A DNA stretch of 64,000 nucleotides, taken from positions 7,819,501 to 7,883,500 of the forward strand of contig NC_085127.1 in the NCBI RefSeq assembly GCF_030269925.1. The letters are read 5' to 3'. Made by a program: the position numbers and the translations under genes. This document shows, piece by piece, positions 1 through 62,010 of the stretch. The stretch is from Bombyx mori (taxonomy: Eukaryota; Arthropoda; Insecta; Lepidoptera; Bombycidae). The first letter of the stretch is position 1, and each line of letters opens with the position of its first letter. The notes under the pieces were generated by a model that ran no database searches, had not been told where the DNA came from, and saw nothing but the letters and a program-made list of their open reading frames with translations.

Positions 1-401
1 GTAATCTATTCAACAAAGCAAATATATATCCGATGCTTAATTAATCCTGACCCATCGCAAGTTGAATATTAACTAACTAACTTTGATTAGTTAAGAACGT
101 GATCTGCGGGGAACGAAAAAAAAATTGACAAAGGAAAGAAAGTTTGAAGCTGTGAGTTAAGGAGATTCAGCTTTTTAAACGCATTAAGAAAGATACCTCA
201 ATATATAATAGGATTTCTATAGAATCTTATCACAAAATATACACATAGACGTTCGATGAAAATAAAATTAAAATCCGAAATAAATTTACCTTTGAATTTA
301 TACTACTACTAATCTGGAGTCAGTCGAAATTGCCTATGTAATATTTTAATCCTATTTTTTAGTTATAGCAGAAAAATAAACTTAAAAGTGTATTAACAAT
401 T
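1..401. other. AT-rich DNA, no gene seen
   Basis: No open frame, repeat end or RNA signature that I can support; ordinary AT-rich intergenic sequence. Confidence 0.6.
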
Positions 402-725
402 TATTTTTTCTCTACCTAATCGTTGGTAGTCTAACGGGCGATTCCAACTACGCGGGGACTGGTAGGTGACGTCATAGGGTTCAACTTGGAAGTATTTGCT
501 AACACTAGCCTTAGCAATAGTAACGGTAGCTGAATCCACTACCGGATGGAAATCGCGACCCACTGAGAAGATCCGGCCAATAACTCAGTGTGTTGTATCT
601 ATGTACGTCGGCTTGGTTGCACGCCAAACTCTACGTCGCATTCGACGAATTTGTCGAGAACAGTGACTGGTGCTTGGAGAGCTTAAAAGCACCGAGAGTG
701 AATCAGGAAGATCCGATAAGATGGC
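402..725 (-). repeat. Decayed 3' end of the jockey-type LINE
   Basis: Read on the minus strand, this matches the 3' UTR and ORF2 tail of the full-length LINE at 1176-6463: the 'GCCGGATCTTCTCAGTGGGTC' type block, the GTGGTAGATTCAGC-like block, and a 3' A-tract seen here as a T-run at 402-409. Many substitutions mark it as older than the intact element. It is 5'-truncated, as usual for target-primed reverse transcription. Confidence 0.75.
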
Positions 726-789
726 ATTAGGGCGACAGCGGGTATGCGTTGGCTACATCATTTGGTCTATGACTATGTATAGCTATGCA

Positions 790-1145
790 TTTTGTTTTTT
801 TATTTAGGGTAAACGGGCTCACAGTTCAACTCATGTTAAAAGGTTACCGGACCACATAGAGATTGGTCTCTTGTCTCGAAGTAAAAGTCGTGAATTCTGT
901 CACCCACTTCGAGAGCTGATGTCGAAGTCTTTATGATTATATAGAGCTGTCTAACTTTACAAAAATCGTTTCTTTTTCTCCACAACCTTGTTCTTTCACC
1001 GTAAAAATCAATCGTGAACAGATATCAGGTAAGTATTTTATTTGATTTATCCAATGCCTGCCAGCGGTATTCGAATCCCGATACAGGCGTATCGCTTGAT
1101 GCGAGTACATCAAGAAGTCTTATCTTTTATACAACAATGACTTCG
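790..1145 (-). repeat. Degenerate Bm1 SINE
   Basis: The T-rich start, 'gggctcacag', a GGTTACCGG-like block and then the reverse complement of the tRNA-derived head (box B-like 'attcgaatcccg' near 1070) follow the order of a minus-strand Bm1. The body (about 870-975) is strongly diverged, while the head (975-1145) is clearer. The intact LINE inserted just beyond its head end. Confidence 0.6.
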
Positions 1146-1166
1146 AAAAGGAATAAGTAAGCTTGC

Positions 1167-1175
1167 ACGGTGAAC
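1167..1175. repeat. Left target site duplication of the LINE
   Basis: ACGGTGAAC at 1167-1175 is repeated directly after the LINE poly(A) at 6464-6472. It fixes the element's 5' end at 1176. Confidence 0.85.
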
Positions 1176-1375
1176 CATTCTCGCTCACGACTCGGTCGTG
1201 CGCGGACGTGCTTTCCGATCCGTGGCCCGCTTGCGAGCCGCGTCTCTGAACTCACAGTTGTGCTCGACAGTGTAGTGACCGTGAATACATCGTGCGTACA
1301 ATTCGGTAGTGCGGACGTGCCGATCCGTTGGTCGCTTGCGATCTGCGTATCGAGGTCCATTTTTGTGCGCTAAAG
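1176..1375 (+). promoter_or_regulatory. Duplicated internal pol II promoter (Inr + DPE) of the LINE
   Basis: There is no TATA box. The element starts with CATTC at 1176, and GGACGTGC (1204-1211) lies at +29 to +36. This matches the downstream element RGACGTGY known from Drosophila jockey, Doc, F and I internal promoters. A second GGACGTGC at 1313-1320 sits 109 nt further on, followed by a related stretch (cgatccgt..tcgcttgcga). The 5' end is therefore about two tandem promoter monomers. The motif and spacing are seen directly; promoter function is inferred from the family. Confidence 0.72.
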
Positions 1376-1382
1376 TTTTGTA

Positions 1383-1718
1383 ACCGCGAACCCACCCTTA
1401 CCAACTGCCTTTTTCAAGGCAACCAATCGCTACGTTCAGCTTCCTGTGGCACTCACAGGCTAGCGATTTCCTAACCCTTCCCAAAAACAACAGTCTTTTT
1501 CAAGACTAGACCCCCGCTCGCGATTCTGCCTGCTGTAGCACTATACAGCCCGAGCGGGTTCCTTTCCTTTTCCCCGCCGATTGCCGTTTTCACGGCATAG
1601 GCATTCCCCCCCCCTGCTCCTTGCTGTCCTGCAGCACAGGGGGGTTACAAATCCTATCCTATCCGGGGCCTCGCCTTTCGGCGAGTTCAACAAAAGTCCC
1701 GGGGCCGCCCCCCCCGGG
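1383..1718 (+). promoter_or_regulatory. Tandem array of conserved-geometry RNA stem-loops in the LINE 5' UTR
   Basis: Two hairpin types alternate. Type A has a 6-bp perfect stem with a TTTC loop: TGCCTT/AAGGCA (1406-1421), AGTCTT/AAGACT (1492-1507), TGCCGT/ACGGCA (1582-1597) and CTCGCC/GGCGAG (1670-1685). Type B has an 8-bp outer stem enclosing an inner hairpin: AATCGCTA/TAGCGATT (1425-1468, inner CCTGTG/CACAGG with loop GCACT), CCCGCTCG/CGAGCGGG (1513-1558, inner GCTGTA/TACAGC with loop GCACTA) and CCCCCCTG/CAGGGGGG (1609-1644, inner TGCTG/CAGCA). A last simple stem is CCCGGGG/CCCCGGG (1698-1718). Linkers from B to the next A are 23, 23 and 25 nt. The array ends 18 nt before the ORF1 ATG. 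Possible roles are translation initiation, RNP binding or packaging; none is shown. Confidence 0.8.
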
Positions 1719-1736
1719 CAAGAAGCAAGAAGAAAC

Positions 1737-3359
1737 ATGGAAGAAAGTGCAAGTGTTTGTGACAGTGATCTTGTCGGGTTCCTCCGGGATAGGTACCCGT
1801 CAATTAGGGCCGAATATTTAGCATTTAGGGCCTCTCGTGGCAATCCCTCCCCCCCCGCGTCCGTCGCCGCGTATTTCAACCGTGCCTCGGAGGCACGCCG
1901 CGCGCCCCCCGCCGCGTTAAGTTCGAGCGCACGTTCCGACGATGCGACTCACGAAGCGCCTAGCGCTACCCCCACCCCCGCGCCCGCGTCGATTACGTCA
2001 TCGCTCGTATCGTCCGTCGCGACCTCGATTGTTTCGAGTTCAGGCTCCGATACCGAATCGGAGATGGATTTCGAATCCGCGTCAAGCCCTCAGCCTGGAA
2101 CTTCGGATGGGTTCCAAACCGTAACGCGCGGTAAAAAGCGTACTCGCGCCGTGGAGTCCCGGAGCTCCACGACGAAGCAGACAAAATCCGCGACCGCCTC
2201 CCGCCCGCAGGTAGTCGTGACACCGGAGTCGGACTCCGCTCGCCGCGTAACCCCGCCGCCGCGTCCCAAGCCCGCGCCCGCTCCTAAAGCAGCTGCCCCG
2301 CCCCCGCTGATTCTCCAGGAAAAAACTGCGTGGAACCGCGTTTCCCAGGCCCTTCAGGCAAATAAAATTAATTATACCCATGCGCGTAACGTCGCGCATG
2401 GGATTCAGATAAAGGTCGCAACGCCGGGCGACCATAGGGCCCTCTCAGCATACCTCCGAAAGGAGAACATAGGTTTCCACACCTATGCTCTTCAGGAGGA
2501 CCGCGAGCTCCGCGTAGTGATACGCGGAGTCCCTAAAGAACTCGACATCGACTACATAAAGGAGGATCTGACCGCTCAGGCCCTCCCGATAGTTAGTGTG
2601 CACCGGATGCACAGCGGGCGGGGCAAACAGCCCTATAATATGATACTCGTGGCGTTAGAACCCACCCCGGAGGCCAAAAAGAAGATCGCATGTCTCACGA
2701 CAATTTGCGGCCTATCCGGGATCTCAATCGAAGCCCCCCACAAGCGTGGCACTCCCGGGCAGTGCTACAGATGTCAGCTTTACGGCCACTCGGCTCGTAA
2801 TTGCCACGCGCGCCCCCGCTGCGTAAAGTGCCTCGGCGACCACGCCACACTAGATTGCTCGCGTGTTAGGGAAACCGCGACCGAACCCCCAAGTTGTGTC
2901 CTATGCCTTAAGCAAGGGCACCCCGCGAACTACCGTGGATGTCCTAGGGCTCCGCGCAAGCGTTCAACCCTCCCAGCTCCGCGAACCGTCGGCCCAAAGA
3001 CTTCGGCACCCTCAGTGCCGAAACCTGCCTTCGTGCCGGCTGCAGTTCCCACGGTTTCAGCGTGGAAAAAGCCGCTGCCGTATACGAAGGCGGGAACACA
3101 AACCGCACCCCCGCCCCCGCTCGCGACACGCCCCGCGCCTCAGCCCCTGCTCGCACCTCGCCCCGCGCCCGCGTTCCGTCCCCCGCAACCCTCTGCCGCC
3201 AACGACTTCGCGCTCGTGCGCGACTTCGTCACCGCGGTGAACTTCGACCGTCTGCGATCGTTCGCTGACGCTATCCGTAGGTCGACAACCCCCGAACAGC
3301 GGCTCGCGGCCGCGTTCGATCACATGGACGTTTATGAGTCCGTGTCGCGTACGTTATAA
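1737..3359 (+). CDS. LINE ORF1: gag-like nucleic-acid-binding protein
   Basis: A 540-residue ORF1 protein of the jockey-type LINE. By family it coats the element RNA to form the retrotransposition RNP. I chose the ATG at 1737 because the frame upstream has no other ATG (only a TTG near 1581) and runs through the structured C-rich leader, and because the context GAAACATGG is good. The N-terminal half is Ser/Pro/Ala-rich and low-complexity. A region around residues 195-330 (WNRVSQALQANKINY.. to RGVPKELDIDYIKEDL) looks like the folded domain that precedes the knuckles in insect gag-like ORF1 proteins. Three CCHC-type zinc knuckles follow at about residues 343-400: CYRCQLYGHSARNC, CVKCLGDHATLDC and CVLCLKQGHPANYRGC. 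The C-terminal part is Pro-rich. ORF2 starts 18 nt after the stop in the same reading frame, which suggests coupled or reinitiated translation. Confidence 0.9.
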   Translation: MEESASVCDSDLVGFLRDRYPSIRAEYLAFRASRGNPSPPASVAAYFNRASEARRAPPAALSSSARSDDATHEAPSATPTPAPASITSSLVSSVATSIVSSSGSDTESEMDFESASSPQPGTSDGFQTVTRGKKRTRAVESRSSTTKQTKSATASRPQVVVTPESDSARRVTPPPRPKPAPAPKAAAPPPLILQEKTAWNRVSQALQANKINYTHARNVAHGIQIKVATPGDHRALSAYLRKENIGFHTYALQEDRELRVVIRGVPKELDIDYIKEDLTAQALPIVSVHRMHSGRGKQPYNMILVALEPTPEAKKKIACLTTICGLSGISIEAPHKRGTPGQCYRCQLYGHSARNCHARPRCVKCLGDHATLDCSRVRETATEPPSCVLCLKQGHPANYRGCPRAPRKRSTLPAPRTVGPKTSAPSVPKPAFVPAAVPTVSAWKKPLPYTKAGTQTAPPPPLATRPAPQPLLAPRPAPAFRPPQPSAANDFALVRDFVTAVNFDRLRSFADAIRRSTTPEQRLAAAFDHMDVYESVSRTL

Positions 3360-3377
3360 AATCTTTACCGGTAATCA

Positions 3378-6260
3378 ATGGCGCAAAAAGGTAGAGAAAA
3401 ACCGTATTCCCTTACGTTAGCATTCTACAATGCTAACGGACTCGCGCGGCAACGCGATCAAATTTTCGAATTCCTCCGCGATAATCTTGTAGATATTCTA
3501 TTAGTGCAGGAAACCTGTCTGAAGCCCTCGCGTCGCGACCCGAAAGTCGCGAATTACGTCATGGTTAGGAATGACAGACTCACCGCCTCCAAAGGCGGGA
3601 CTGCCATTTACTATAGGCGGGCCCTGCACGTTGTCCCTCTCGATACTCCCTCGCTCTCACATATCGAGGCGTCAGTGTGCCGTATCTCGCTGACGGGACA
3701 CCAGCCGATCGTCATCGCATCCGTTTATCTCCCCCCGGACAAGCCCCTTCTGAGCAGTGACATCGAGTCACTGTTCGGCATGGGAGACTCCGTCATCCTG
3801 GCAGGCGATTTAAATTGCCACCACACTAGGTGGAACTGCCACAGTTCAAACATAAATGGTAGGCGTCTCGACGCGTTTATAGACGACCTTACCTTTGAAG
3901 TAGTCGGTCCCCCAACTCCAACATGTTATCCGTATAACATCGCGCTCCGTCCGAGCACTATAGACCTGGCACTGCTGAGGAACGTAACTCTGCGCTTGCG
4001 TTCCATCGAAGCAATGTCAGAGCTCGACTCGGACCACCGACCTGTCGTTATGCAGCTCGGTCGCCCCCACAACCCAGTCACTGTTACGAGGACCATGGTG
4101 GATTGGAATAAGCTGGGCACGTGCCTAGCCGACACCGCTCCGCCAATCCTCCCTTACGGCCCGGATTCGAATCTATCCCCCGAGGACACCGTCGAATCCA
4201 TAAACATCATTACCGATCACATATCTTCCGCGATCATTAGATCTTCTAAAGAAGTCGATGTGGAGGACAGCTTCCACCGCATCAGACTGTCCCCCGATCT
4301 TAGGAATCTCTTAAGAGTTAGGAACGCGGCAATCCGGGCCTACGATCGTCTTCCCACGCATTCAAACCGGATTCGGATGCGTCGTCTACAACGCGAAGTC
4401 CACTCCCGCTTAAGCGACGCGCGTAACGATAATTGGCATAGTTATTTAGAACAACTCGCGCCCTCCCACCAAGCATACTGGCGACTAGCTAGGACTCTCA
4501 AATCCGAAACTATAGCCACTATGCCTCCCCTCGTACGCCCTTCAGGCCAACCACCGGCATTCGATGACGATGACAAGGCTGAGCTGCTGGCCGATGCACT
4601 GCAAGAGCAGTGCACCACCAGCACTCAACACGCGGACCCCGAACACACCGAGTTAGTCGACAGGGAGGTCGAGCGCAGAGCTTCCCTGCCGCCCTCGGAC
4701 GCGTTACCCCCCATTACCACCGACGAAGTTAGAGACGCGATCCACAACCTACAACCTAGGAAGGCACCCGGCTCCGACGGCATCCACAACCGCGCGCTTA
4801 AACTCTTGCCAGTCCAACTGATAGCAATGTTGGCTACAATTTTAAATGCCGCTATGACGCACTGCATCTTTCCCGCGGTGTGGAAAGAAGCGGACGTTAT
4901 CGGTATACATAAGCCGGGCAAACCGACAAACGAAACTTCTAGTTACCGTCCGATTAGTCTCCTCTCGACGATAGGAAAAATTTACGAACGGCTCCTTAGG
5001 AAACGCCTCTGGAATTTTGTTACCGCGAACAAAATTCTCATAGACGAACAGTTCGGATTCCGCTCAAAACACTCGTGCGTACAACAAGTGCACCGCCTCA
5101 CGGAGCACATTCTGATAGGACTAAATAGGCGTAAACAAATCCCGACCGGCGCCCTCTTCTTCGACATCGCGAAGGCGTTCGACAAAGTCTGGCACAACGG
5201 TTTAATTTATAAACTATACAACATGGGAGTGCCAGACAGACTCGTGCTCATCATACGAGACTTCTTGTCGAACCGTTCGTTTCGATATCGAGTAGAGGGA
5301 ACTCGTTCTCGTCCCCGTCAACTGACCGCCGGAGTCCCGCAAGGCTCCGCGCTCTCCCCGTTATTATTTAGTTTGTATATCAATGATATACCCCGGTCTC
5401 CGGAGACCCATCTAGCGCTCTTCGCCGATGACACGGCTATCTACTACTCGTGTAGGAAGATGTCGCTGCTTCATCGGCGACTCCAGATCGCAGTAGCCAC
5501 CCTGGGACAGTGGTTCCGGAAGTGGCGAATAGACATCAACCCCACGAAAAGCGCAGCGGTGCTCTTCAAAAGGGGTCGCCCTCCGAACATCACTTCGAGC
5601 ATCCCACTCCGTAGTAGGCGCGCAAACACCTCCGCCGTTAGTCCCATCACTCTCTTTGGCCAGCCCATTCCGTGGGTCTCGAAGGTCAAATATCTAGGCG
5701 TCACCCTCGACAGAGGGATGACATTCCGTCCCCATATAAAAACGGTACGCGACCGCGCCGCGTTTATTCTAGGACGACTCTATCCAATGCTTTGTAGTCG
5801 AAGCAAACTGTCCCTCCGCAATAAGGTAACTCTCTACAAAACTTGCATACGCCCCGTCATGACGTATGCAAGCGTAGTGTTCGCTCACGCAGCCCGCAAC
5901 CACTTGAAATCCCTTCAGGTTATTCAATCACGATTCTGCAGGATAGCCGTCGGAGCGCCTTGGTTCCTTAGGAATGTGGATCTCCACGACGACCTGGAGC
6001 TCGACTCTCTTAGTAAGTATCTACAGTCGGCATCGCTGCGCCATTTTGAGAAGGCGGCACGACATGAGAACCCTCTCATCGTAGCCGCTGGAAATTACAT
6101 ACCCGACCCAGTAGACCGAATGGTAAACCGTCGACGTCGCCCAAAGCACGTCATTACGGATCCTCCTGATCCATTAACGGTGCTTTTAGGCACCACAAGC
6201 ACCGGTCACCGTCCTCGTCGAACCCGTCGCTTGCGACGAAGGGCTCGACGAGCGAACTAA
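3378..6260 (+). CDS. LINE ORF2: AP-like endonuclease and reverse transcriptase
   Basis: A 960-residue enzyme that nicks target DNA and reverse-transcribes the element RNA from the nick. The APE-type endonuclease covers about residues 12-225, with FYNANG, LLVQETCL (catalytic Glu), AGDLNCHHTRWN (GDxN near 142) and SDHRPV near 217 (catalytic Asp-His). The RT spans about 455-740: APGSDGIHNRAL, SSYRPISLLSTIGKIYERLL, EQFGFRSKHSC, FFDIAKAFDKVWHNGL, LTAGVPQGSALSPLLFSLYI and ALFADDTAIYY, with the catalytic Asp pair at 684-685. The thumb-like region continues through WVSKVKYLGVTLD. I see no RNase H domain. The tail is very Arg-rich (TGHRPRRTRRLRRRARRAN). The frame is intact. There are two in-frame stops (3357, 3372) between ORF1 and this ATG. 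Confidence 0.95.
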   Translation: MAQKGREKPYSLTLAFYNANGLARQRDQIFEFLRDNLVDILLVQETCLKPSRRDPKVANYVMVRNDRLTASKGGTAIYYRRALHVVPLDTPSLSHIEASVCRISLTGHQPIVIASVYLPPDKPLLSSDIESLFGMGDSVILAGDLNCHHTRWNCHSSNINGRRLDAFIDDLTFEVVGPPTPTCYPYNIALRPSTIDLALLRNVTLRLRSIEAMSELDSDHRPVVMQLGRPHNPVTVTRTMVDWNKLGTCLADTAPPILPYGPDSNLSPEDTVESINIITDHISSAIIRSSKEVDVEDSFHRIRLSPDLRNLLRVRNAAIRAYDRLPTHSNRIRMRRLQREVHSRLSDARNDNWHSYLEQLAPSHQAYWRLARTLKSETIATMPPLVRPSGQPPAFDDDDKAELLADALQEQCTTSTQHADPEHTELVDREVERRASLPPSDALPPITTDEVRDAIHNLQPRKAPGSDGIHNRALKLLPVQLIAMLATILNAAMTHCIFPAVWKEADVIGIHKPGKPTNETSSYRPISLLSTIGKIYERLLRKRLWNFVTANKILIDEQFGFRSKHSCVQQVHRLTEHILIGLNRRKQIPTGALFFDIAKAFDKVWHNGLIYKLYNMGVPDRLVLIIRDFLSNRSFRYRVEGTRSRPRQLTAGVPQGSALSPLLFSLYINDIPRSPETHLALFADDTAIYYSCRKMSLLHRRLQIAVATLGQWFRKWRIDINPTKSAAVLFKRGRPPNITSSIPLRSRRANTSAVSPITLFGQPIPWVSKVKYLGVTLDRGMTFRPHIKTVRDRAAFILGRLYPMLCSRSKLSLRNKVTLYKTCIRPVMTYASVVFAHAARNHLKSLQVIQSRFCRIAVGAPWFLRNVDLHDDLELDSLSKYLQSASLRHFEKAARHENPLIVAAGNYIPDPVDRMVNRRRRPKHVITDPPDPLTVLLGTTSTGHRPRRTRRLRRRARRAN

Positions 6261-6273
6261 CCCATAGACACAG

Positions 6274-6307
6274 CCCACTGAGTTTCTCGCCGGATCTTCT
6301 CAGTGGG
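6274..6307 (+). promoter_or_regulatory. 3' UTR stem-loop of the LINE
   Basis: CCCACTGAG (6274-6282) pairs with CTCAGTGGG (6299-6307) around a 16-nt loop. The copy at 34167-34200 has CCCGCTGAG/CTCAGCGGG, where A-U has become G-C on both sides. The copy near 34968 has a G-U wobble at one pair. This suggests selection for the pairing, probably as the RT recognition structure at the RNA 3' end. Confidence 0.65.
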
Positions 6308-6463
6308 TCGCGTTTCCGATCCGGTGGTAGATTCAGCGAAGCACTGCTCTTGCTAGGGTCAGTGTTAGCAACTCTCCGGTTGAGCCCCGCGAGCTCACCT
6401 ACTAACGTTAGGATGAAGCTGAAATAGCCTCTCAAGGCTATCAGCATAGGTAGGGAAAAAAAA

Positions 6464-6472
6464 ACGGTGAAC
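6464..6472. repeat. Right target site duplication of the LINE
   Basis: ACGGTGAAC directly after the A-run, identical to 1167-1175. Confidence 0.85.
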
Positions 6473-6908
6473 GATATACGTACAATAATGCAACATGTAT
6501 ACAGTAATTTTACACGCAGAGACATATTACAAATATCCTTATTGATAAAGTCGGGTATTTTAACATTAGAACGTATTTAAAGTATCAAATATACAATATG
6601 CGCTCATGGAAATAGACTTTCATTTTTACATTACTATTATATAAAACAACTGAATACTGATAAAATCGTTTTGTGTCGCCACATATTCTTATCTACATGC
6701 CTTGAATTATCTGTTTATGTTTTCAAAACAATCAAACAAACATTCTTGCTGTCAATATCTAGAATTAATGGTGTTGATGACTACATGCTTTCTTTAATTG
6801 TATTTAATAAAATCAATAAGATTCTTTAAACGAATATTTTTTTATTGATTACTATAATATATGGTTCTAAAAGATAATTCAAGTTTCAAAAAATATAAGT
6901 TAATTTTT
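6473..6908. other. AT-rich DNA, nothing identified
   Basis: No coding or repeat signature that I can support. Confidence 0.5.
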
Positions 6909-7088
6909 GTTTTTTTTTTGTTGCTTAGATAGATGGACAAGTTCGCGACCCATCGGTGCTAAGTGGTTACCGGAACCCATAGACATCAGCAACCTAAATG
7001 CTGTCTTGAGATATGAGCTATGACTCTCAGTTTTATAATACAATTGCTGCTTCACCTTTCAAAGCAAAACGCATTACTTTTTCACGGA
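6909..7088 (-). repeat. Degenerate Bm1 SINE body
   Basis: T-run, then 'ttgcttagat', 'aagtggttaccgga', 'cccatagacat' and 'cgcattacttt', all in minus-strand Bm1 order. Truncated before the tRNA-like head and notably diverged. Confidence 0.8.
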
Positions 7089-19752: not shown

Positions 19753-19859
19753 ATTGCTTAGCGTGACCTTGTGTTGTCTTGAGTTAGTATTCATTTTTTA
19801 TTTGTAATAAAATAAAATTCACGATAACCGCCATTAACTCGCGCTGCTTCGTAGCCATC

Positions 19860-22800
19860 ATGGCGGATATCGAACAAGATTTGTTTGAACGCGAAATAAT
19901 TCTTGAGGATATCAAACGTACATTACAAGTTGCTCAAATAAATGAACAACAATTTAGATCTCGTGTTATAGACTTAACTTCTCAACACAGAAAATTCTCA
20001 AAATTACAATCCAAAATTGAAAAAGTTCTTATAAAAACAAAATGTTTCGATAAAGATGAACAGCTTAAAATTCGTGGTGATTTTAATGACTGTTACTACG
20101 CCATAATTGCTCATATGAATAGTTTGAAAAAATCAGATGAAGAGAGTAGACGAATGAGTCGACCTTCAATTTTAAATTCTTCGTTTAATGCTCATAGCGG
20201 TGGTTGCGCAAACAAACTACCCACTTTGCCTATGCCGTGTTTCAACGGGGAACCTACAGAGTGGCCCCCGTTTTATGATTTATTTCGTTCGTTAGTGCAC
20301 GACAGTGATGCCTTCACCAACACGGAGAAATTCCGTTACTTACTTTTAACTTTAAAAAATGAGCCGTATAATTTAATAAAGTCACTACCGATAACTGAGG
20401 ACAATTACTTTGTGGCTTTGAACATTTTAATTTCACGGTATGATAATAAACGGGTGATCGCAGTGAAACATATCGACAAAATACTCGATATCGAACCTTG
20501 TTCCGAAAGAAACATTCTTACTTTGCGTAATTTACTGAACGTGTATCAAGAAAATATAAAAGCGTTGGAAGTTATGCCATTGCCCACGAAACAATGGAGT
20601 TTTTTATTATTGAACATCCTACTGCGTAAAATACCACCCTCAATACGTAAGAGGTTCGAGTTATCTCTAATAAAACCATGCGATATTCCAGACATTGACA
20701 CGTTAATAAACTTCTTAGAACGTGAGTTATCTGCATGCCAGTTTTCAAACTCAAATTCAGTTAGTTTAAATACAAATGATAAAATGGTCGCACATGGGGG
20801 TAGTTCTCGAACATTACCGCAAAATGCATCGCGTGTTGTTTCTAAGTCAAGCGAAGCCACCTTAGGTACGCGACGTTCATTTGCCGCTAGCGTCATTCAT
20901 GACGTTCCCTTAAGAAATAAAAACACGAAGAACAATATATGTTTATGTTGTGAGGCTCAGCATACGTTAAATAAATGCAGCAAATTTCTAAATTTATCTC
21001 CGCGTGATAGATATTCTTTCATTCAAAATAAAAACGTTTGTTTTAATTGTTTAAATGTCGGTCATGATGTGAAACAATGCAAGTCCAATTTTGTGTGTCG
21101 CTCGTGTCAAAAAAGACATCACACTTTGCTTCATTTTGATTCTCATCGTTTGTCAGTTACAGTAAATAGTGGTATGACAGAAAGTAGTTCTGCATCTCTC
21201 TCGCGCAACGATACATCTCAATCTGACGTAGCCGCTCAACACGTCATGACCGCGGTGAATCACGCACAGTCTACTGCATCGTGTGTTCGGGGTACAGTTT
21301 TGTTAGCCACAGCGCTCATCCATGTATATGTGACTCCGCGTATTAAGCACATCGTTCGATGTATTGTAGATAGTGGTAGTCAGGCGACATTTATCACAGA
21401 GGCTTGCGCGCAGCGTTTAAATTTAGCGCGTAAATATACTAACGTTCCGGTGTTCGGTGTGGGTGATAATAGGCCTGTATACCCGAATGGCGTCGTAACG
21501 TTCTGCGTTACCCCTCGTAATGGGGATCAGCCTTCGATCCCGGTTGAAGCATTTATTTTACCAAAGATTGTTTTACAAAATATGCCAAGTGTTTCTTTAC
21601 CTTTCACGGAATGGCTTCATATACAGAATATTACATTAGCTGATCCCAATTTTCATACTCCACAACCAGTGGAAATGCTTTTAGGTGCGGACATACTGTC
21701 CCAAATATTATTAGGCAATGTGATTACGGGACTACCTGGTTCGCCGATAGCTATAAATAGCATCTTCGGTTATCTATTGTTAGGTAGTCTTTCTTTCAAT
21801 CACAATTCTTCCCCTGTTACTACAGGAATGCAAGTTTATCATTCAAGTTTTAGCTCATCCTACGATGACATGGAACTAACAAAATTTTGGGAATTGGAGT
21901 CGTTGCCTGAAAGGAAAGAGTTCACTCCAGATGAAACTTTGTGCGAATCGTTATTTGTTAGCTCACATACTCGTGACAAAACCGGACGATACATAGTCCC
22001 CCTTCCGCTTAGACCGGATTCCCCATCCTTAGGTGAATCCCGGAGTATAGCTTTATCTAGATTAAATAAATTAGAATATCGTTTAGAACGTAATCATTTG
22101 TTAAAAATGGACTATCACACGTGTTTAAAAGAATACGATGATCTTGAGCACATGGAGTTAGTTCACACTCCGTCCCTGGTCCCGGACAATTCGTATTACA
22201 TACCGCACCACTGCGTGGTCAAAGAATCGAGTACTACTACTCGAACGCGCGTTGTTTTTGATGCAGGTTGCAAAACTTCCAATGGAAAGTCTTTGAATGA
22301 CATATTGTTAGTCGGTCCTAAATTGCATCAAGACATAGTCGATGTTTTACTAAAATTTAGATTAAATTCTATTGCTTTCACGGCAGATATAAAACAAATG
22401 TACCGAAGCATTTTAATACGCGAGTCGGATCGCGATTTTCAACGAATCTTATGGCGGTCATCATTAAATGAACCCGTACGCGACTATCGACTCCGAACAG
22501 TTACTTTCGGCATTAGTTCTTCACCATATTTAGCACTACGCACGATACGACAGCTAGCTGTCGATGAGCAGACGCGGTTCCCGTTAGCCTCGGAGGTCCT
22601 GAGGGACCAAGTGTTTGTTGATGACGTAGTCACGGGAGAAAGTGACGAGTCACGTGCTTTAGTTTTACAACAACAATTAATTGGTATTTGTCAATCAGCG
22701 GGATTCGAACTGCGAAAGTGGTGCAGCAACTCGCCCGCGATACTCGCGGCAGTTCAGACGCCAAGACTTCACGGTGAGCGGCAGGACAACATATCCTTCG

Positions 22801-25187
22801 CTTCCATGGAAAATGATATGCAAATAAAAGTCCTTGGTCTGCAGTGGAACCCAAAGCTTGACGTCTTTTCATTTTCTGTTCAAGTAGGAACCGATAAAAT
22901 AACAAAACGTGCGATTCTCTCTCAAATAGCGAAAATTTATGATCCCATGGGTTGGCTCGCTCCTGTCACTTTATATGCCAAACATTTAATACAATTATTA
23001 TGGTTATCAAAAGTTGGCTGGGACGACCCACTGCCCGTGAATATAGCAAACGCGTGGTCGACCTTTATCAATGAGTTGCCACTCTTATCGCAATTAGAAA
23101 TTCCACGTTATGTTTTGCCAAATACATATGCTGTCCAAATTCATGGGTTTTCGGACGCATCCGAGAAAGCATATGCTGCTAGCATTTACCTACGTCTTAC
23201 GGACTTACAACGTAATGTTAGATGCTTTCTTTTAATTGCAAAAACTCGCGTGGCGCCTATCAAACCGGTTTTGACGATACCACGCTTAGAGTTATGTGCG
23301 GCGGTATTATTGTCTCAGCTGTGTGAGAGGGTGCTATGTATTTATAAAGATCGTGTGAACTGCGAAGATATATACGCATGGTCAGATTCTTCTATTGTGT
23401 TAGCGTGGCTTCGATCACCACCTCATGAATGGAAAACTTTCGTGTCTAATCGAACGAGCGAGATACTCTCACGACTTCCTGCAAGGTGCTGGCGTCACGT
23501 TCCATCTGAGGATAACCCAGCAGATGCTCCATCTCGTGGGATGCTTCCTGAAACATTTCTAAATAATGAAATGTGGTTTAATGGCCCGCCGTGGCTTGCC
23601 CGAGAGCCGTCTTACTGGCCCACGAACAAAAACATTCCTAATACTACGGAGGAAAGACGTAATTTAACAGTAATGCTGAATTCAGTAATAACACAACCGG
23701 AGGACGTGGAATACATATCACGCTTTTCCACGTTAGGTAAACTTGTTAGAATTACAGCTCGAATATTTCGTTTTTACAATAATTGTAAGCGAAGAAAAAA
23801 ATCCTATCCTGATTTTATTACGGTGTCCGAGTATGAGTTTTCTTTAATGAAATTAATTCACAGAGTTCAATTATTTTGTTTTTATGAGGACATAAAAAAT
23901 ATTTCACAGGGAAAATATCCTTCAAATAAACTCAGACGTTTAAATCCCTTTCTTGACAAAGACAATAATTTACGAGTAGGAGGACGACTTCACAAGTCAA
24001 TTTTGAATTTTGATTCTAAGCACCAGTTGATTCTACCTAAAAAACATCATTTAACTTTTTTAATAATCGATAACGCTCATATCACAAATTTGCATGCCGG
24101 ATCTCAATCTGTTCAACACATTTTATTTCAAAGATTCTGGATCTTATCCAGTCGTGATATTATTCGTATGCGTATTCATAGTTGTGTTCGTTGTTTTCGA
24201 GCACGTCCTGCTCCGTTACAGCCAGCCATGGCTCCGCTACCCGCCTCAAGAGTGCGTCCCGAACGTCCATTCTTAAAGACTGCAGTTGATTTCGCTGGAC
24301 CGTTTTACGTTCGTGCAAACAAAGTTCGAAACGCGAAGGTAATCAAATGTTATGTTGCTGTTTTCGTTTGTATGTCGGTTAAGGCGGTGCATCTCGAGTT
24401 GGTTTCGGAATTATCTACTGACGCGTTTTTGGCGACTCTAAGACGATTTATATCACGTAGAGGTATGAGTACCGATATTTATTCCGATTGCGGGAGAAAC
24501 TTTGTTGGCTGTAATAACTACCTACAAGAGTTATATAAATTTTTACGTGATAATAATGTACAATCGACGTTAAACAGTAAAACTTTAGAACAAGGTATAA
24601 CTTGGCATTTTCAGCCACCTTACGCTTCTCATTTTGGCGGCTTATTCGAAGCTGGTGTAAAAAGTTTTAAGCATCACTTTTACCGTGTGTTAGGCACACA
24701 AACACAGACGTATGATGAGATGCATACACTTCTTTGTCAAATTGAGGCCGTACTCAATTCACGACCACTCTGTGTGTTAAGTAGCGATCCTACGGACCCT
24801 TTACCCTTAACACCTTCTCATTTTTTAATTGGAGGTCCTTTAACGGCTCTGCCAGATGTCTCATTGACGGAGTCTACTTCAAATAAACTGACCAGATGGC
24901 GTTGGGTACAACAGTGTCTTCAACACTTTTGGAAACGTTGGAGTCGCGAGTATTTACATGAAATCCAACAACGCAATAAATGGTTTCACAATCGCGGACC
25001 ACTCATACGTGAAGGCACCATTGTCGTGGTACGCGACGATAATCTTCCTCCATTACACTGGAGACTGGCTCGCGTACACGCTCTTCATCCCGGGTCCGAC
25101 AATGTTACTCGCGTAGTAACTGTTCAAATCGGTAATACCTTCGTTAAACGTGCAGTAGTCAAACTTTGTCCACTTCCAATAAACTAA
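19860..25187 (+). CDS. BEL/Pao gag-pol polyprotein
   Basis: A 1775-residue single-frame polyprotein. In order: an N-terminal coiled-coil-like region; a gag domain of the DUF1759 type from about 118 (LPMPCFNGEPTEWPPFYDLF); zinc-knuckle region 361-425 (CFNCLNVGHDVKQC, CRSCQKRHHTLLH); a DUF1758-type aspartic protease with IVDSGSQATF near 501; an RT with VVFDAGCKTSNGKSLNDIL near 798, FTADIKQMYRSI near 840 and the catalytic VFVDD near 918; RNase H (GFSDASEKAYAASIY near 1094, LELCAAV near 1142, AWSDSS near 1173); an integrase with an HH-CC zinc region around 1400-1445, core Asp in TAVDFAGPF near 1477, Asp1543 in YSDCG and Glu1597 in GLFEAG; and the conserved C-terminal domain (RWRWVQQCLQHFWKRWSREY). 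Gag and pol are fused without frameshift, as usual in this group. The ATG at 19860 follows the LTR by 132 nt. No stop codon interrupts it. Confidence 0.96.
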   Translation: MADIEQDLFEREIILEDIKRTLQVAQINEQQFRSRVIDLTSQHRKFSKLQSKIEKVLIKTKCFDKDEQLKIRGDFNDCYYAIIAHMNSLKKSDEESRRMSRPSILNSSFNAHSGGCANKLPTLPMPCFNGEPTEWPPFYDLFRSLVHDSDAFTNTEKFRYLLLTLKNEPYNLIKSLPITEDNYFVALNILISRYDNKRVIAVKHIDKILDIEPCSERNILTLRNLLNVYQENIKALEVMPLPTKQWSFLLLNILLRKIPPSIRKRFELSLIKPCDIPDIDTLINFLERELSACQFSNSNSVSLNTNDKMVAHGGSSRTLPQNASRVVSKSSEATLGTRRSFAASVIHDVPLRNKNTKNNICLCCEAQHTLNKCSKFLNLSPRDRYSFIQNKNVCFNCLNVGHDVKQCKSNFVCRSCQKRHHTLLHFDSHRLSVTVNSGMTESSSASLSRNDTSQSDVAAQHVMTAVNHAQSTASCVRGTVLLATALIHVYVTPRIKHIVRCIVDSGSQATFITEACAQRLNLARKYTNVPVFGVGDNRPVYPNGVVTFCVTPRNGDQPSIPVEAFILPKIVLQNMPSVSLPFTEWLHIQNITLADPNFHTPQPVEMLLGADILSQILLGNVITGLPGSPIAINSIFGYLLLGSLSFNHNSSPVTTGMQVYHSSFSSSYDDMELTKFWELESLPERKEFTPDETLCESLFVSSHTRDKTGRYIVPLPLRPDSPSLGESRSIALSRLNKLEYRLERNHLLKMDYHTCLKEYDDLEHMELVHTPSLVPDNSYYIPHHCVVKESSTTTRTRVVFDAGCKTSNGKSLNDILLVGPKLHQDIVDVLLKFRLNSIAFTADIKQMYRSILIRESDRDFQRILWRSSLNEPVRDYRLRTVTFGISSSPYLALRTIRQLAVDEQTRFPLASEVLRDQVFVDDVVTGESDESRALVLQQQLIGICQSAGFELRKWCSNSPAILAAVQTPRLHGERQDNISFASMENDMQIKVLGLQWNPKLDVFSFSVQVGTDKITKRAILSQIAKIYDPMGWLAPVTLYAKHLIQLLWLSKVGWDDPLPVNIANAWSTFINELPLLSQLEIPRYVLPNTYAVQIHGFSDASEKAYAASIYLRLTDLQRNVRCFLLIAKTRVAPIKPVLTIPRLELCAAVLLSQLCERVLCIYKDRVNCEDIYAWSDSSIVLAWLRSPPHEWKTFVSNRTSEILSRLPARCWRHVPSEDNPADAPSRGMLPETFLNNEMWFNGPPWLAREPSYWPTNKNIPNTTEERRNLTVMLNSVITQPEDVEYISRFSTLGKLVRITARIFRFYNNCKRRKKSYPDFITVSEYEFSLMKLIHRVQLFCFYEDIKNISQGKYPSNKLRRLNPFLDKDNNLRVGGRLHKSILNFDSKHQLILPKKHHLTFLIIDNAHITNLHAGSQSVQHILFQRFWILSSRDIIRMRIHSCVRCFRARPAPLQPAMAPLPASRVRPERPFLKTAVDFAGPFYVRANKVRNAKVIKCYVAVFVCMSVKAVHLELVSELSTDAFLATLRRFISRRGMSTDIYSDCGRNFVGCNNYLQELYKFLRDNNVQSTLNSKTLEQGITWHFQPPYASHFGGLFEAGVKSFKHHFYRVLGTQTQTYDEMHTLLCQIEAVLNSRPLCVLSSDPTDPLPLTPSHFLIGGPLTALPDVSLTESTSNKLTRWRWVQQCLQHFWKRWSREYLHEIQQRNKWFHNRGPLIREGTIVVVRDDNLPPLHWRLARVHALHPGSDNVTRVVTVQIGNTFVKRAVVKLCPLPIN

Positions 25188-30088: not shown

Positions 30089-30515
30089 CTTTTTTTTCCT
30101 ACCTAAGCTTATAGCCTGGAGAGGCTACTTCAGTATAACCTTAACTAGTAGGTGAGCTCACGAGGCTCAAACCTGACGACGTTGCTATGACGAACCCTAG
30201 CAAGAGCCATGCTTCGCAAAATCTACCACCGGATCGGAAATGCGACCCATTGAGAAGATCCGGCAAGAAGCTCAGTGGGCTGTGTTTATTGGTTAATTTA
30301 CTCGTCGAGCCCTTCGTCGCAAGCGACGGGTTCGACGAGAACGATGACCGGTGCTTGAGGTACCTAAAAGCACCGTTAGTGGATCGGGAGGGTCCGAAAT
30401 GACGTGTTTTGGTCGACGTCGACTGCATTCTGTCCGCAGCATCGGGAATGTAGTTACCAGCGGCCACAATGAGAGGGTTCTCGTGTCGTGCCGCTTTATC
30501 GAAGTGGTAGGCTAT
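30089..30515 (-). pseudogene. 5'-truncated copy of the jockey-type LINE
   Basis: The minus strand encodes the ORF2 C-terminus (AAGNYIPDAADRM, compared with AAGNYIPDPVDRM in the intact element) and the 3' UTR with its stem-loop, then a poly(A) seen as a T-run at 30090-30097. Frame shifts after the ADRM motif separate it from the intact copy. The RT catalytic part is missing. Confidence 0.85.
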
Positions 30516-32543: not shown

Positions 32544-34149
32544 CATAAAATTATTATTGTCAAGGTTTTTCACAATTACCAGTAAATAAACAGACGTAGA
32601 CTTGCTAATTCAAAACATCGTACTTTCTTTCATGTAATATAATCACGGAATATCAGTCTCCATTAACGTTTATTCGTTTGAAACTCTTGAGACTTGCTTC
32701 TGACAAGTCCAAATATAAATCCTTTGAATTCAAAACACACATAAAATATTAATGAAGACTTCGTATTTGAAAATATTTCATGTTGAAGACTTTACGACAC
32801 ATCAGTGATTCAATTCGATGAATGAATCGCAAGGACATCGAGGAATATAGCAATGACGAAGTTAATTCGTAATTTTACGATAATATATTTTTTTTTTGCT
32901 TTTCGAATTTTCTTTGCGTAATCTTCGCCAGTGCGATAGATAAATAAAATCTTTGATATTACAGAAGTATTTGCGTTTTTAGGAGTGGGTTTTTTTATTT
33001 CTTAGACGGGTAGACGAAGCTCACAGCCCATGCATGACCGAATTAATATAGCACGGTTTCTGTTTAAAAGTAAAGTTAAATCGTGTGAAAATAATAAATC
33101 ACAGATCAAAATGGATGGAAATGGGTTCAAGCTAAATCATTCAATTAGTTTTGAAAAGAGATCTAAATTAATCCGATTCCATTGCATTCAATTTCATTTC
33201 ATTAATTTGTTCTAAGTAGAGAAGTACACTGAAAAAACTGTTCAATAATGAATTCATTCTAGTATTATTAAAATTTACTCCATTGACAATTATTTAAAAA
33301 TACGTTGTTTCACTTAAATCAAATTTAAACATTGTGTAATTAAAATATATAACTAAAGGCATTCCTACTTATTCGAATACTGAACTTATTGAAATATGTT
33401 TTTTTTTTCAAAAATCCAAATCGTGCATGTGTGCGACTAATTTAATAGGAGTCCTAGTGACAAATTTTCTAATTAATTTAAACTCGTTACATATTATTAA
33501 TTGGTTTGCATTTTGCAATATGATTTAAGTTTATTTTCACTTCCCTCTTTAAGATTAAGAGGACTATCGATCGATGAAAATTACAAATTATAGAAATGAT
33601 ATACCTATAAATTATTAATTCTTACCACTATTAGTTAGAGCAGAACTTACATAAAACAGGAAACAAATTAAATAACTGTTAGGAAAATGAAAATTCAATA
33701 AGATGAAGAATCCCAGGAACAGATGAGGTGGTGCTATTTGAGGCCTACCCAACAACATTTTTATTTAAGTATCAAGCCGTTGTGGAAACAAAGGGATCTG
33801 TGGACAAATCGATTTTCACAAATAAATAACTAGTTTTATTCTTAGATCTAGTCTCAAAAGCTTATGAAATGATGTACTTAATGTTTTTTAAAGAAAAGGG
33901 TTATGTTTTTCAACAAAATGACATTACATGTACAAATTTAAAACATCATCTGCTTACATGTCTGCTTACTTGCAAATATGTCTACTTACTAGAACTTATA
34001 ATTACATTTTATCCATGTTTATTTTTCTGTTGCTTTTAATTTTATCTTCTTTTATAGTCATAATTATTAGTTTTGGAGCATAATACTCTGTAGCTTGTTG
34101 GCGTCATCAGCGCTGATTGTATTTGAGGTCTTGCACAGTTCGACTTCGA
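32544..34149. other. AT-rich DNA with a 40-bp Bm1 tail fragment
   Basis: 32988-33029 carries the minus-strand Bm1 3' end (TTTATTTCTTAGACGGGTAG..CTCACAGCCCA) and then stops abruptly. Nothing else supported. Confidence 0.55.
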
Positions 34150-34387
34150 CCTAACCCATGCATCAGCCCGCTGAGTTTCTCGCCGGATCTTCTCAGCGGG
34201 TTACGATTTCGATCCGGTAGTAGGTTCATTGTCGAAGCAGCTGCTCTTGAGTTGTTGGGCTACTTAGGAGGCGCTCGGGCAGTTGTTAGCAAATTCCACC
34301 CCTCCTGGCTGAGCCTCTGCTCGCCCACCTGGTAAAACTGGAAAGGCCTCCGGGCTACCAGTAATACTTAAATCATAAAAAAATAGT
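34150..34387 (+). repeat. 3' UTR of a diverged jockey-type LINE subfamily
   Basis: Shares the stem-loop (CCCGCTGAG/CTCAGCGGG at 34167-34200) and GATCCGGTAGTAGGTTC with the intact LINE, then diverges into its own tail (GAAAGGCCTCCGGGCTACC) and an A-run. A sister subfamily rather than a copy of the 1176-6463 element. Confidence 0.72.
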
Positions 34388-34892
34388 AAATAAAAAAAAG
34401 TTCGACTTCGTGCTATTCTATACAAATGATGAGAGAAGAATTTGGTTTATGATTTTTTTTGAAATCACGAAACACCTGAGACTTTTGTTTTAGAAAATTA
34501 ATTTTGAGGCGATTAAAACGTTGTACCAAAACGTATTCATAACAAATAGCTGAAGCATGAAAAAAATTCTCAGACAGTCGATACGGTACTTAATTGATTG
34601 TTACAAAGAAAAAGATCAAGCTAAGTTGGTAGCAGCAATTTTGGATACTAATATTATCAGGCGAGTGTTATTAGTTTTTTCTAATAAAGTTTTATTAGAA
34701 GCTAAGAAATAAAAAAACAATCTCCATCATGATGAACTAGGACATAAACATAGCTTTATAGCACTACATTCGTCCATGCTATGATTGTCCGTATGTGAAA
34801 CATCTATGCGTTTTGGCAGTAAAATCGAACCGTATGCCGTAACGCAAAGGGCATGATGCTCTCTCATGCCATTATGCCCGTGCGCATACAAA
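34388..34892. other. Non-coding DNA, nothing identified
   Basis: No supported feature. Confidence 0.5.
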
Positions 34893-35166
34893 ACACCGGT
34901 CATCGTTCTCGTCGAACCCGTCGCTTGCAACGAAGGGCTCGATGAGTAAACTAACCCACAGATACAGCCCATTGAGTTTCTCGCCGGATCTTCTCAGTGG
35001 GTCGCGTTTCCGATCCGGTGGTAGATTCTGCGAAGCACGGGTCTTGCTAGGGTTTGTGTTGGCAACGTCGTCAGGTTTGAGCCCCGTGAGCTCACCTGCT
35101 AGTTAAGGTTCCACTGATATAGTCTCTCTAGACCGTAAGCTTAGGCAGAAAAAAAAAAAAAAAAAA
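34893..35166 (+). repeat. 5'-truncated 3' end of the jockey-type LINE
   Basis: Begins ACCGGTCATCGTTCTCGTCG in the ORF2 tail, carries the 3' UTR and stem-loop (with one G-U pair), and ends in a run of about 18 A. Well preserved. Confidence 0.88.
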
Positions 35167-58271: not shown

Positions 58272-58982
58272 TTCGTTCATCTTTAATCGGTAGACCACGC
58301 ATGACGAAACATGGACAACGAAGGCAACAGTACCATATTATATGATGGTAATATAATGTACCCAAGTGAATTAACTCTTCGCACAGAATTCAATACGGAT
58401 GGTAATAATATGAACGTCTGTGCAATATGGCCAATAGAAAAATGTATAGAGATCCTCATACTAAATGACACAAAGACTGATGATATCCTTGGCCGATCGT
58501 TCATTTACAATGATACTCAACTTACATGCTTAGAACATGCTCCAGTACTCACCAAAACCACTGTAATCAGAGCGAGCGTTCTTTCTGCTATGGCTTTTTT
58601 ATCCTTCATTGGCAATGTGGCAACAATTATAAGCATTCGGAGGAGTAAAAGATGCAGAGGAAGAGCACGACCTTCTTGGACCGCCATTTACAGTTTAATA
58701 TTCCAGCTCAGTATAGCTGACTTGCTAGTAACGATCTTCTGTATAGCAGGAGAAGCCGCTTGGTCGTTTGCTGTCCAGTGGTATGCTGGTAATATTGGAT
58801 GCAAATTATTCAAATTCCTACAGATGCTAGCTCTTTATTTGAGCACTTTTGTCTTAGTACTAATAGGAGTGGATCGGTGGCTTGCCGTTAAATATCCAAT
58901 GAAAAGTATGGCTACAGCGACAAGAAGCGGAAGGCTGGTTATAATTGCGTGGGTCCTGAGCGTCATACTCAGCATTCCTCAG
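58272..58982 (+). CDS. CrzR: Corazonin receptor-like GPCR, first coding exon (CDS 58311-58982)
   Basis: A class A peptide GPCR of the plasma membrane; in insects the corazonin receptor answers the neuropeptide corazonin and belongs to the GnRH/AKH receptor group. This exon encodes residues 1-224: an extracellular N-terminus with Asn glycosylation sites at 6, 52 and 67, TM1 with Gly-Asn (101-102), TM2 with SIADLL (Asp137), Cys164 for the loop disulfide, TM3 ending IGVDRW (DRW in place of DRY), and TM4 with Trp214. The SLIFQLSIADLLVTIFCIAG and LSTFVLVLIGVDRWLAVKYP blocks are what I recall for corazonin receptors. The ATG at 58311 is the first in frame. TTTTGTTACAG ending at 58271 is a good acceptor, so an untranslated exon lies upstream. 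The exon ends CAG|GTAAAT at 58982, phase 0. An AKH receptor is the main alternative and less likely. Confidence 0.88.
58301..58345 (+). promoter_or_regulatory. Overlapping upstream ORF in the receptor leader
   Basis: An ATG 10 nt before the receptor ATG, out of frame, opens a 14-codon frame that ends at TGA 58343-58345 inside the coding region. If used it would lower receptor translation. Its context (CGCATGA) is weaker than that of the main ATG (AACATGG). Confidence 0.5.
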
Positions 58983-60379
58983 GTAAATATTAATTATGAG
59001 TCTATTTGTCTTAACCGAAGAGTCCAATTTAACTTTCGTGAATTTTAATAGACAGCATTAACAACCCTAAAGGAATATTTATAACTTGAGTCGTTACTGG
59101 TAGCGTGTATTGAGATTCCGCAGAGGTATGTATATTCGCGAAACAGGTTTGAAAAATGAAATTGGTATTTTTTAATACAACTGATAATTCCACTTCATTA
59201 ACTCCTTGACAACAGATGTCTTCTTTGCCCATCACATCATTCGGTACAATAAAAAGACTAGCCAGCGAGAAAACAATTAAAATTCGTAAAATAATAGTAG
59301 AAAAATCCATGGTTTTCAACCTTGAATCTCGATTTTAATAATAATATACAGATGTTAAATGTTGAACATGCTTGGCATTTCACACGAATTGCTCATTGAA
59401 AAGAAGGGTAGTCATTTGACAAACTGTACACACAGGTGTGCCTGCCAAATTGCGCCGTGTTTACCATTGTCTTTATGAACAAAAAAAAATTCCGTACAAC
59501 ATTCACGGCTTTTGAAACATTCCAAAGCGAACGGCTAACACGATTTAGATACGCCTTTTAAAATGGATTCGACGTAATAGGATTATTTAATTTATATTCT
59601 TCGTCTCTACACTCATCGATGCTCTAATGAGTATTTTATGAAATTAAATTACTATGAAATAATTTGTATATTTATGTCATTCATTTGACCCGATTTTCAT
59701 AACCAAATGTGCTAAAATAGACTATAAAGGGCTTATATTTTTTATCAGATTATTTATATTTATTTACAAATTTCTTAATAATAATTCAGTCTGTTTTGAA
59801 TCGTTGTAGATTTCAATCAGAATAAGTGCGCCCTCTGGAAACGTGATAGAAGAATTCTAAAGTGTCCTTCATTACTACTGTACTTCACGCATGATTTTTA
59901 TATGAAATGCATCATAAAAAAAATTTTTTTCATGATCTTCATGATCCTTAGATGGGCAACAATAACTCAAAGTCCACCTTTTTAGTGTTACGTTACCAAC
60001 TCCTATAAATACTATAATAATACTTTTCGAAACGACAAGAGTGTGCTACTAATGCATTAATAGCATTATTGTTTATAATGTATGTAATACAAATATAACT
60101 TGAGTTCCCGTACGGTCTCTTCAGCACAACAAAAATATTCCAACGAACATTTTTTTCACGAGCCACATGAATAATAATTTGTTTCAAAACTATGTTCCGT
60201 TATTAATATTCATATAGGCACATAATAAGTACATTCGGAGCAGAGGCGGGGGGCCCCCGTGCTCTCATGTAAAGCGACCCGCTGGACACGACCGGAATTC
60301 TAATCTCAAGGTCGAATTTTTTTCATGCAAATCAAATATCAGTTTCAATTATTTTGTTTTCAATTTCGTATATACGTAT

Positions 60380-61831: not shown

Positions 61832-62010
61832 TTTTTTTTTAATCGCCTAACTATTGCTAGTAGTCTTGAGGGGTTATGCTAGCTTCAACGGACGCGTAGG
61901 CGAGCTCACGGAGCTCACAAAAGCAGTGCTTCGCTGAATCTACCATGATCAGAATCGCAACCCTTTGAAAAGATCCGACGAGAAATTTAATGGGCTGTTT
62001 TACTACCAAT
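61832..62010 (-). repeat. Old 3' fragment of the jockey-type LINE
   Basis: T-run, then 'gcgagctcacgg', 'gcttcgctgaatctacca', 'gaaaagatccgacgagaaat' in minus-strand 3' UTR order, with heavy divergence and a broken stem-loop. Confidence 0.65.

Follow-up and report, generated by a model that had tools for sequence, protein, structure and literature searches.

The window, by which we mean the whole stretch of 64,000 nucleotides of Bombyx mori DNA analysed here, carries on its plus strand a full-length LINE at positions 1176 to 6463, with a 9-bp target-site duplication (ACGGTGAAC) on both sides of it, at 1167-1175 and 6464-6472. Eight array-bearing copies of the element were fetched, and the 5' end at 1176 is common to four copies besides the window's own; this comparison covered the plus strand, the remaining three copies being stored in the opposite orientation. 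A leader of 561 nt is followed by ORF1 (1737-3359, plus strand, 540 aa), with PRE_C2HC and CCHC-knuckle matches in Pfam, and by ORF2 (3378-6260, plus strand), with endonuclease and reverse transcriptase matches; no RNase H domain was found among the Pfam matches of the LINE. From these domains, together with two Papilio relatives of ORF2 that bear the name jockey (P0033 and P0036), the element is assigned to the Jockey clade. Close relatives of ORF1 or ORF2 were also met under the names Acinetobacter baumannii and Pseudomonas aeruginosa (P0001, P0062 and P0064), probably as contaminating insect DNA. Elsewhere in the window, several pieces (496-736, 30090-30507, 34147-34249, 34891-35159 and 61918-61998) are 76-85% like the 3' end of the LINE and are probably truncated LINE or SINE copies; an open frame of 1799 codons at 19788-25187 carries the Pao-type retrotransposon domains Peptidase_A17, DUF1759 and DUF5641, and an open frame at 58305-59048 with a partial rhodopsin-type receptor domain (7tm_1) is probably an exon of a host gene. 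Antisense to ORF2, the minus strand at 5788-5854 matches the Rfam family mir-2822 (33 bits, E 0.0032, short of the gathering score of 84), and this miRNA family may have originated from such a LINE; near the end of ORF2, a weak RF00032-like hairpin with a UUUA loop (6174-6202, 17.6 bits, E 0.67) is probably due to chance.

Within the leader, and ending beside ORF1, lies an array of hairpins whose geometry was recovered as the original prediction had described it. Four A hairpins on the plus strand, A1 (1406-1421, TGCCTT-TTTC-AAGGCA), A2 (1492-1507, stem AGTCTT), A3 (1582-1597, stem TGCCGT) and A4 (1670-1685, stem CTCGCC), have perfect partners and the loop TTTC. Between them, on the same strand and where first described, are three B structures: B1 (1425-1468), an inner hairpin inside an 8-bp outer stem (AATCGCTA); B2 (1513-1558), with an 8-bp outer and a 6-bp inner stem; and B3 (1609-1644), with the outer stem CCCCCCTG. 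The linkers leading from each B structure to the next A hairpin measure 23, 23 and 25 nt. A fourth B-like hairpin, B4 (1698-1718, plus strand, CCCGGGG/CCCCGGG), had been overlooked, as had two monomers of about 105 bp that open the leader (1176-1382). The linkers between hairpins are long and G-poor. Repeated duplication of the units had originally been proposed; among the A units, a repeat relationship was recovered for A1 to A3 only (76-81% against A1 across 21 nt).

Shuffled sequence does not reproduce the array. Among 2000 dinucleotide shuffles of 1383-1718, no 6-bp hairpin with a TTTC loop occurred; when any 4-nt loop was allowed, no shuffle contained more than two 6-bp hairpins (13 of the 2000 had two) against the four observed, and non-overlapping 8-bp B-type stems numbered two at the most (in 2 of the 2000) against the three observed. 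The minimum free energy (MFE) of the same segment gave a z-score of -5.9 relative to dinucleotide shuffles, and a repeat folding run gave -6.0 on the plus strand and -4.8 on the minus strand; the values for ten further 336-nt pieces of the LINE ranged from +0.1 to -4.2. The array lies beyond chance and is the most structured piece tested in the LINE, though other structured pieces exist.

The genome searched (one genome, 461.7 Mb in 30 contigs) returned 476 first-look candidates for the array; all 40 scored copies are 99-100% identical, and the top score is shared by 26, among them the copy in the window. The LINE family is young, and because its scored copies are nearly identical, covariation within it is not assessable; related families from the same genome were therefore fetched. 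We compared 59 distinct oriented places, made up of the window, 55 places reached by the P0107 search and the three loci L010, L011 and L013, where near copies of the array lie, leaving out second fetches of five places (L034, L035, L042, L052 and L073) and two loci with no ORF1 motif (L009 and L012). The A2, A3 and A4 modules precede ORF1 in 50 of the 59 places, four belonging to the group of the window element and 46 to a sister group; in seven of the nine places with no modules, the ORF1 frame spans 380 codons or fewer, as 5' truncation would give. From A2 to A4 the leader is 78-84% identical to the five sister loci compared, and against the same five loci the N-terminal part of ORF1 is 54-63% identical and the rest 71-74%. 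A perfect A1 hairpin is confined, among the 59 places, to the window element and its three near copies; the A3 and A4 stems hardly vary.

Two further LINE groups, numbered 3 (L074-L084, via the P0115 search) and 4 (L085-L089, via the P0088 search), keep only the last module, A4-B4, and their upstream leaders contain no others; the start of P0064 resembles that of group 3, and P0064 shares 63% identity with the window ORF1 over 49% of the query. The A4 stem CTCGCC/GGCGAG is perfect in 15 of the 16 places of these two groups, with the loop GCAA in 15 and GCTA in one, a B4-like hairpin lies just before ORF1, and no TTTC-loop hairpin is listed in their leaders. The invariance claimed at first for the TTTC loop thus holds for all four A hairpins of the window element and fails in its relatives, since TTTA and TCTC also occur in the sister group and GCAA or GCTA in groups 3 and 4. 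The leaders of L074-L089 also carry several copies of a repeat of about 15 bp resembling CGCCCGGCCTTTGTT, and those of group 3 two copies of a repeat of about 90 bp. The number of A-B pairs varies by lineage: groups 3 and 4 have one, the sister group has three and the window element four, and in these comparisons the part adjoining the start codon is the most widely kept. Relatives were also sought in viral contigs, genome contigs and phages, and none was confirmed there.

Paired changes were found between the groups. In the window element B2 has the outer stem CCCGCTCG/CGAGCGGG and the inner stem GCTGTA/TACAGC, and in most sisters CCCCACTG/CAGTGGGG and GTTGTG/CACAAC, so that 6 of its 14 pairs have changed on both sides with no loss of pairing in any of the 14 (P about 2e-5 under a simple random-substitution null; 0.001 for the outer stem alone and 0.013 for the inner). 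Double changes that keep pairing between the A units of the window element gave P values from 0.004 to 0.10. Within the sisters, a C-G to T-A change affects one B2 pair (4 of 50 places) and a U-A to C-G change affects pair 6 of A2 (10 of 50); neither is significant alone (P 0.077 and 0.098). RNAalifold, run on 24 unique A2-B2 sequences, reported both-side changes in 4 of 21 pairs and a small covariation term of -0.59 kcal/mol, in an alignment that undercounts the B2 outer stem of the window by setting it off by one column. At pair 4 of B4, 41 of 65 places have G-C, 16 have G-U and 8 have A-U, one variant of the 66 falling outside the pattern. Altogether 2086 stem cells were counted: 2061 are Watson-Crick, a share inflated by locating stems through patterns, 20 are sense-strand G-U, which fall at three pair positions only and represent few independent events, one is A-C and four are other mismatches. 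B3 was left out of the pair counts because its run of C does not align safely. Compensatory change, the second step of the history proposed at the outset, is supported between families, where paired changes exist, and not among the scored copies of the family itself, which are 99-100% identical. We consider it highly probable that, in this one genome, the array is a conserved RNA structure of the sense strand.

The same stems could be read at the level of DNA, as inverted repeats that a dimeric DNA-binding protein would occupy within an internal promoter. One review locates promoters in most characterized leaders of functional non-LTR elements (PMC2881922), and the near-invariance of the A3 and A4 stems would suit such sites; however, the B2 sequence changes while its pairing stays, and the wobbles match the sense RNA strand, which makes this reading very unlikely. 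Paired changes might also arise in one step and with no selection for structure, if reverse transcriptase switched templates at imperfect palindromes and so kept their arms complementary. Such fold-back copying seems to happen at these hairpins, since the leader of L088 has been shortened to 132 nt and rearranged and its A4 is now a longer perfect palindrome, and it could make perfect stems, which nearly all stems here are (2061 of 2086 cells). As the whole story, however, it is opposed by the one-sided bulge of 11-12 nt that persists in B2 and that whole-arm copying would remove, and by the single G-U intermediates on the sense strand; we regard it as unlikely, if less so than a DNA-level element.

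The LINE starts with CATTC and has GGACG at +28, which we take to be an Inr/DPE layout, so that the array would be transcribed. The two leader monomers, 75-81% alike over the reported parts, each contain GGACG (at +28 and +137, counted from 1177). GGACG is also found at +28 in 11 of 11 group-3 leaders and at the equivalent place in 5 of 5 group-4 leaders; a promoter layout common to all groups was rejected, the Inr-to-GGACG pattern being missing from all eight sister loci tried. ATG is absent from the 561-nt leader, in which about six would be expected from base composition and each of the five remaining permutations of A, G and T is found three to eight times. Among related loci, followed over up to 560 nt, 10 of 12 contain no ATG, and the single ATG of L062 and the three of L038 all lie over 510 nt upstream of the start. 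In the stretch that begins about 130 nt ahead of A2 and ends at the start codon, 49 of 50 places are free of ATG and the remaining one has two. The leaders are ATG-free in 10 of 11 cases in group 3 and in 5 of 5 in group 4. The possibility that the leader is itself coding was discarded, because A4 does not stand in the same frame in group 3 as in group 4 and, in L040, a stop codon occurs 36 nt ahead of the start.

These observations bear on the main rival to the reading that we prefer, namely that the array controls translation, the hairpins tuning cap-dependent scanning or recruiting initiation factors for ORF1, internal entry included. The array stands directly before ORF1, A4-B4 lies beside the start codon in four LINE groups, and the linkers are long and G-poor, all of which would suit such an element. 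Internal entry, in contrast, is disfavoured: the ATG-free leader fits scanning from the cap better, and the ribosome-recruiting role put forward at the outset accordingly becomes less likely, if still conceivable. For ORF1 of pol II LINEs, a review likewise favours cap recognition and scanning (PMC2881922). Control of translation is a possible explanation that we nevertheless hold to be improbable overall.

The explanation that we prefer, to which we assign a probability of about 0.35, is that the array forms, in the sense RNA, a binding platform for ribonucleoprotein (RNP) assembly at the start of ORF1. A Pol II transcript would begin at 1176 or 1177, and ribosomes would scan from its cap through the ATG-free leader. 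The core unit would be a single A-B pair, A4-B4, placed immediately ahead of the ORF1 start codon, and hairpins spaced by G-poor linkers would make the platform multivalent. Its likely ligand would be the element's own ORF1 protein, of the CCHC-knuckle type, which may nucleate the RNP and could thereby stop translation of the RNA that it packages, acting as a switch from translation to packaging. Type I ORF1 proteins with RRM and CCHC motifs are described as RNA binding (PMC4120745). The analysis establishes the structure by prediction, the keeping of that structure across places of one genome, the paired changes and the lack of ATGs upstream of ORF1, whereas the promoter, scanning, the platform role, the ligand and the switch to packaging are inferred. 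In its favour are an array beyond chance, modules in 50 of 59 places, the paired changes in B2, the excess of sense-strand G-U over A-C cells (20 against 1) and the retention of A4-B4 in groups 3 and 4. Against it, the A4 loop differs between groups, a poor fit to a ligand that reads one fixed loop; perfect stems can also come from fold-back copying, as in L088; and the data favour the ORF1 protein no more than a host protein as the ligand.

More broadly, we speculate that Jockey-clade LINEs may use a modular signal for packaging and for switching off translation, in which an A-B unit at the ORF1 start is present in three or four copies in some families, several copies are bound by the ORF1 protein, and the cassette persists as the remaining leader and the N-terminus of ORF1 diverge around it; this is a bolder proposal, and we advance it only tentatively. 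To our knowledge, little is settled about the way in which a LINE protein selects its own RNA on the 5' side. A short, conserved and countable hairpin module beside the ORF1 start, in a LINE with 476 first-look candidates in one genome, provides a direct experimental handle, and the related elements form a natural series of one, three and four units. One account describes the 5' UTRs of LINEs as varying widely and resisting generalisation (PMC4120745). We found no description of such an array, or of the use of SLBP by a retrotransposon, in the open-licence literature, which does not imply that none is in print.

The mention of SLBP refers to a further explanation, that the A hairpins mimic the histone 3' stem-loop (RF00032) and bind SLBP, which would link the LINE RNA with S phase or with translation in the germline. 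The two structures have in common a 6-bp stem and a 4-nt UUUC loop, and RF00032 matches A1, weakly, at 22.9 bits (E 3.7e-4). SLBP requires a G as the second nucleotide of the stem, together with adenines on the flanks (PMC10388802); this G is present in A1 to A3 and absent from A4, and the loops of A2 to A4 in the window and sister groups (TTTC, TTTA and TCTC) are also in keeping with mimicry. However, the array lies in a 5' leader and in several copies, the A1 score is below the RF00032 gathering score of 34 and the match is missing from the listings of the 7-kb and 64-kb Rfam scans, RF00032 matches neither A2 to A4 nor two sister loci, and the A4 loop is GCAA in two groups. In one sister, a bacterial c-di-GMP riboswitch family obtained 22.1 bits on the antisense strand, and a score of such size therefore means little here. 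Of the explanations weighed, mimicry of the histone stem-loop appears to us the least likely.

Several known systems resemble the array in part. The leaders of R2/RTE-type LINEs carry HDV-like ribozymes, and R2 has a protein-binding RNA at its 5' side; a structured leader RNA is common to these elements and ours, which differs in having a multi-hairpin array at the ORF1 start, and no HDV-like or other ribozyme family was found in two Rfam scans, one of positions 1-7000 with E up to 1 and one of the window with E up to 10. Retroviral packaging signals stand before gag, and they likewise comprise several hairpins ahead of the gene for a CCHC-knuckle protein, although they belong to another class of element and packaging is here a candidate function. 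Mouse L1 has tandem promoter monomers, and tandem leader units are found in both elements, the monomers of about 105 bp at 1176-1382 resembling those of L1. The A-B array, in contrast to the monomers of mouse L1, consists of non-identical units that lie downstream of the monomers at 1176-1382 and carry paired changes.
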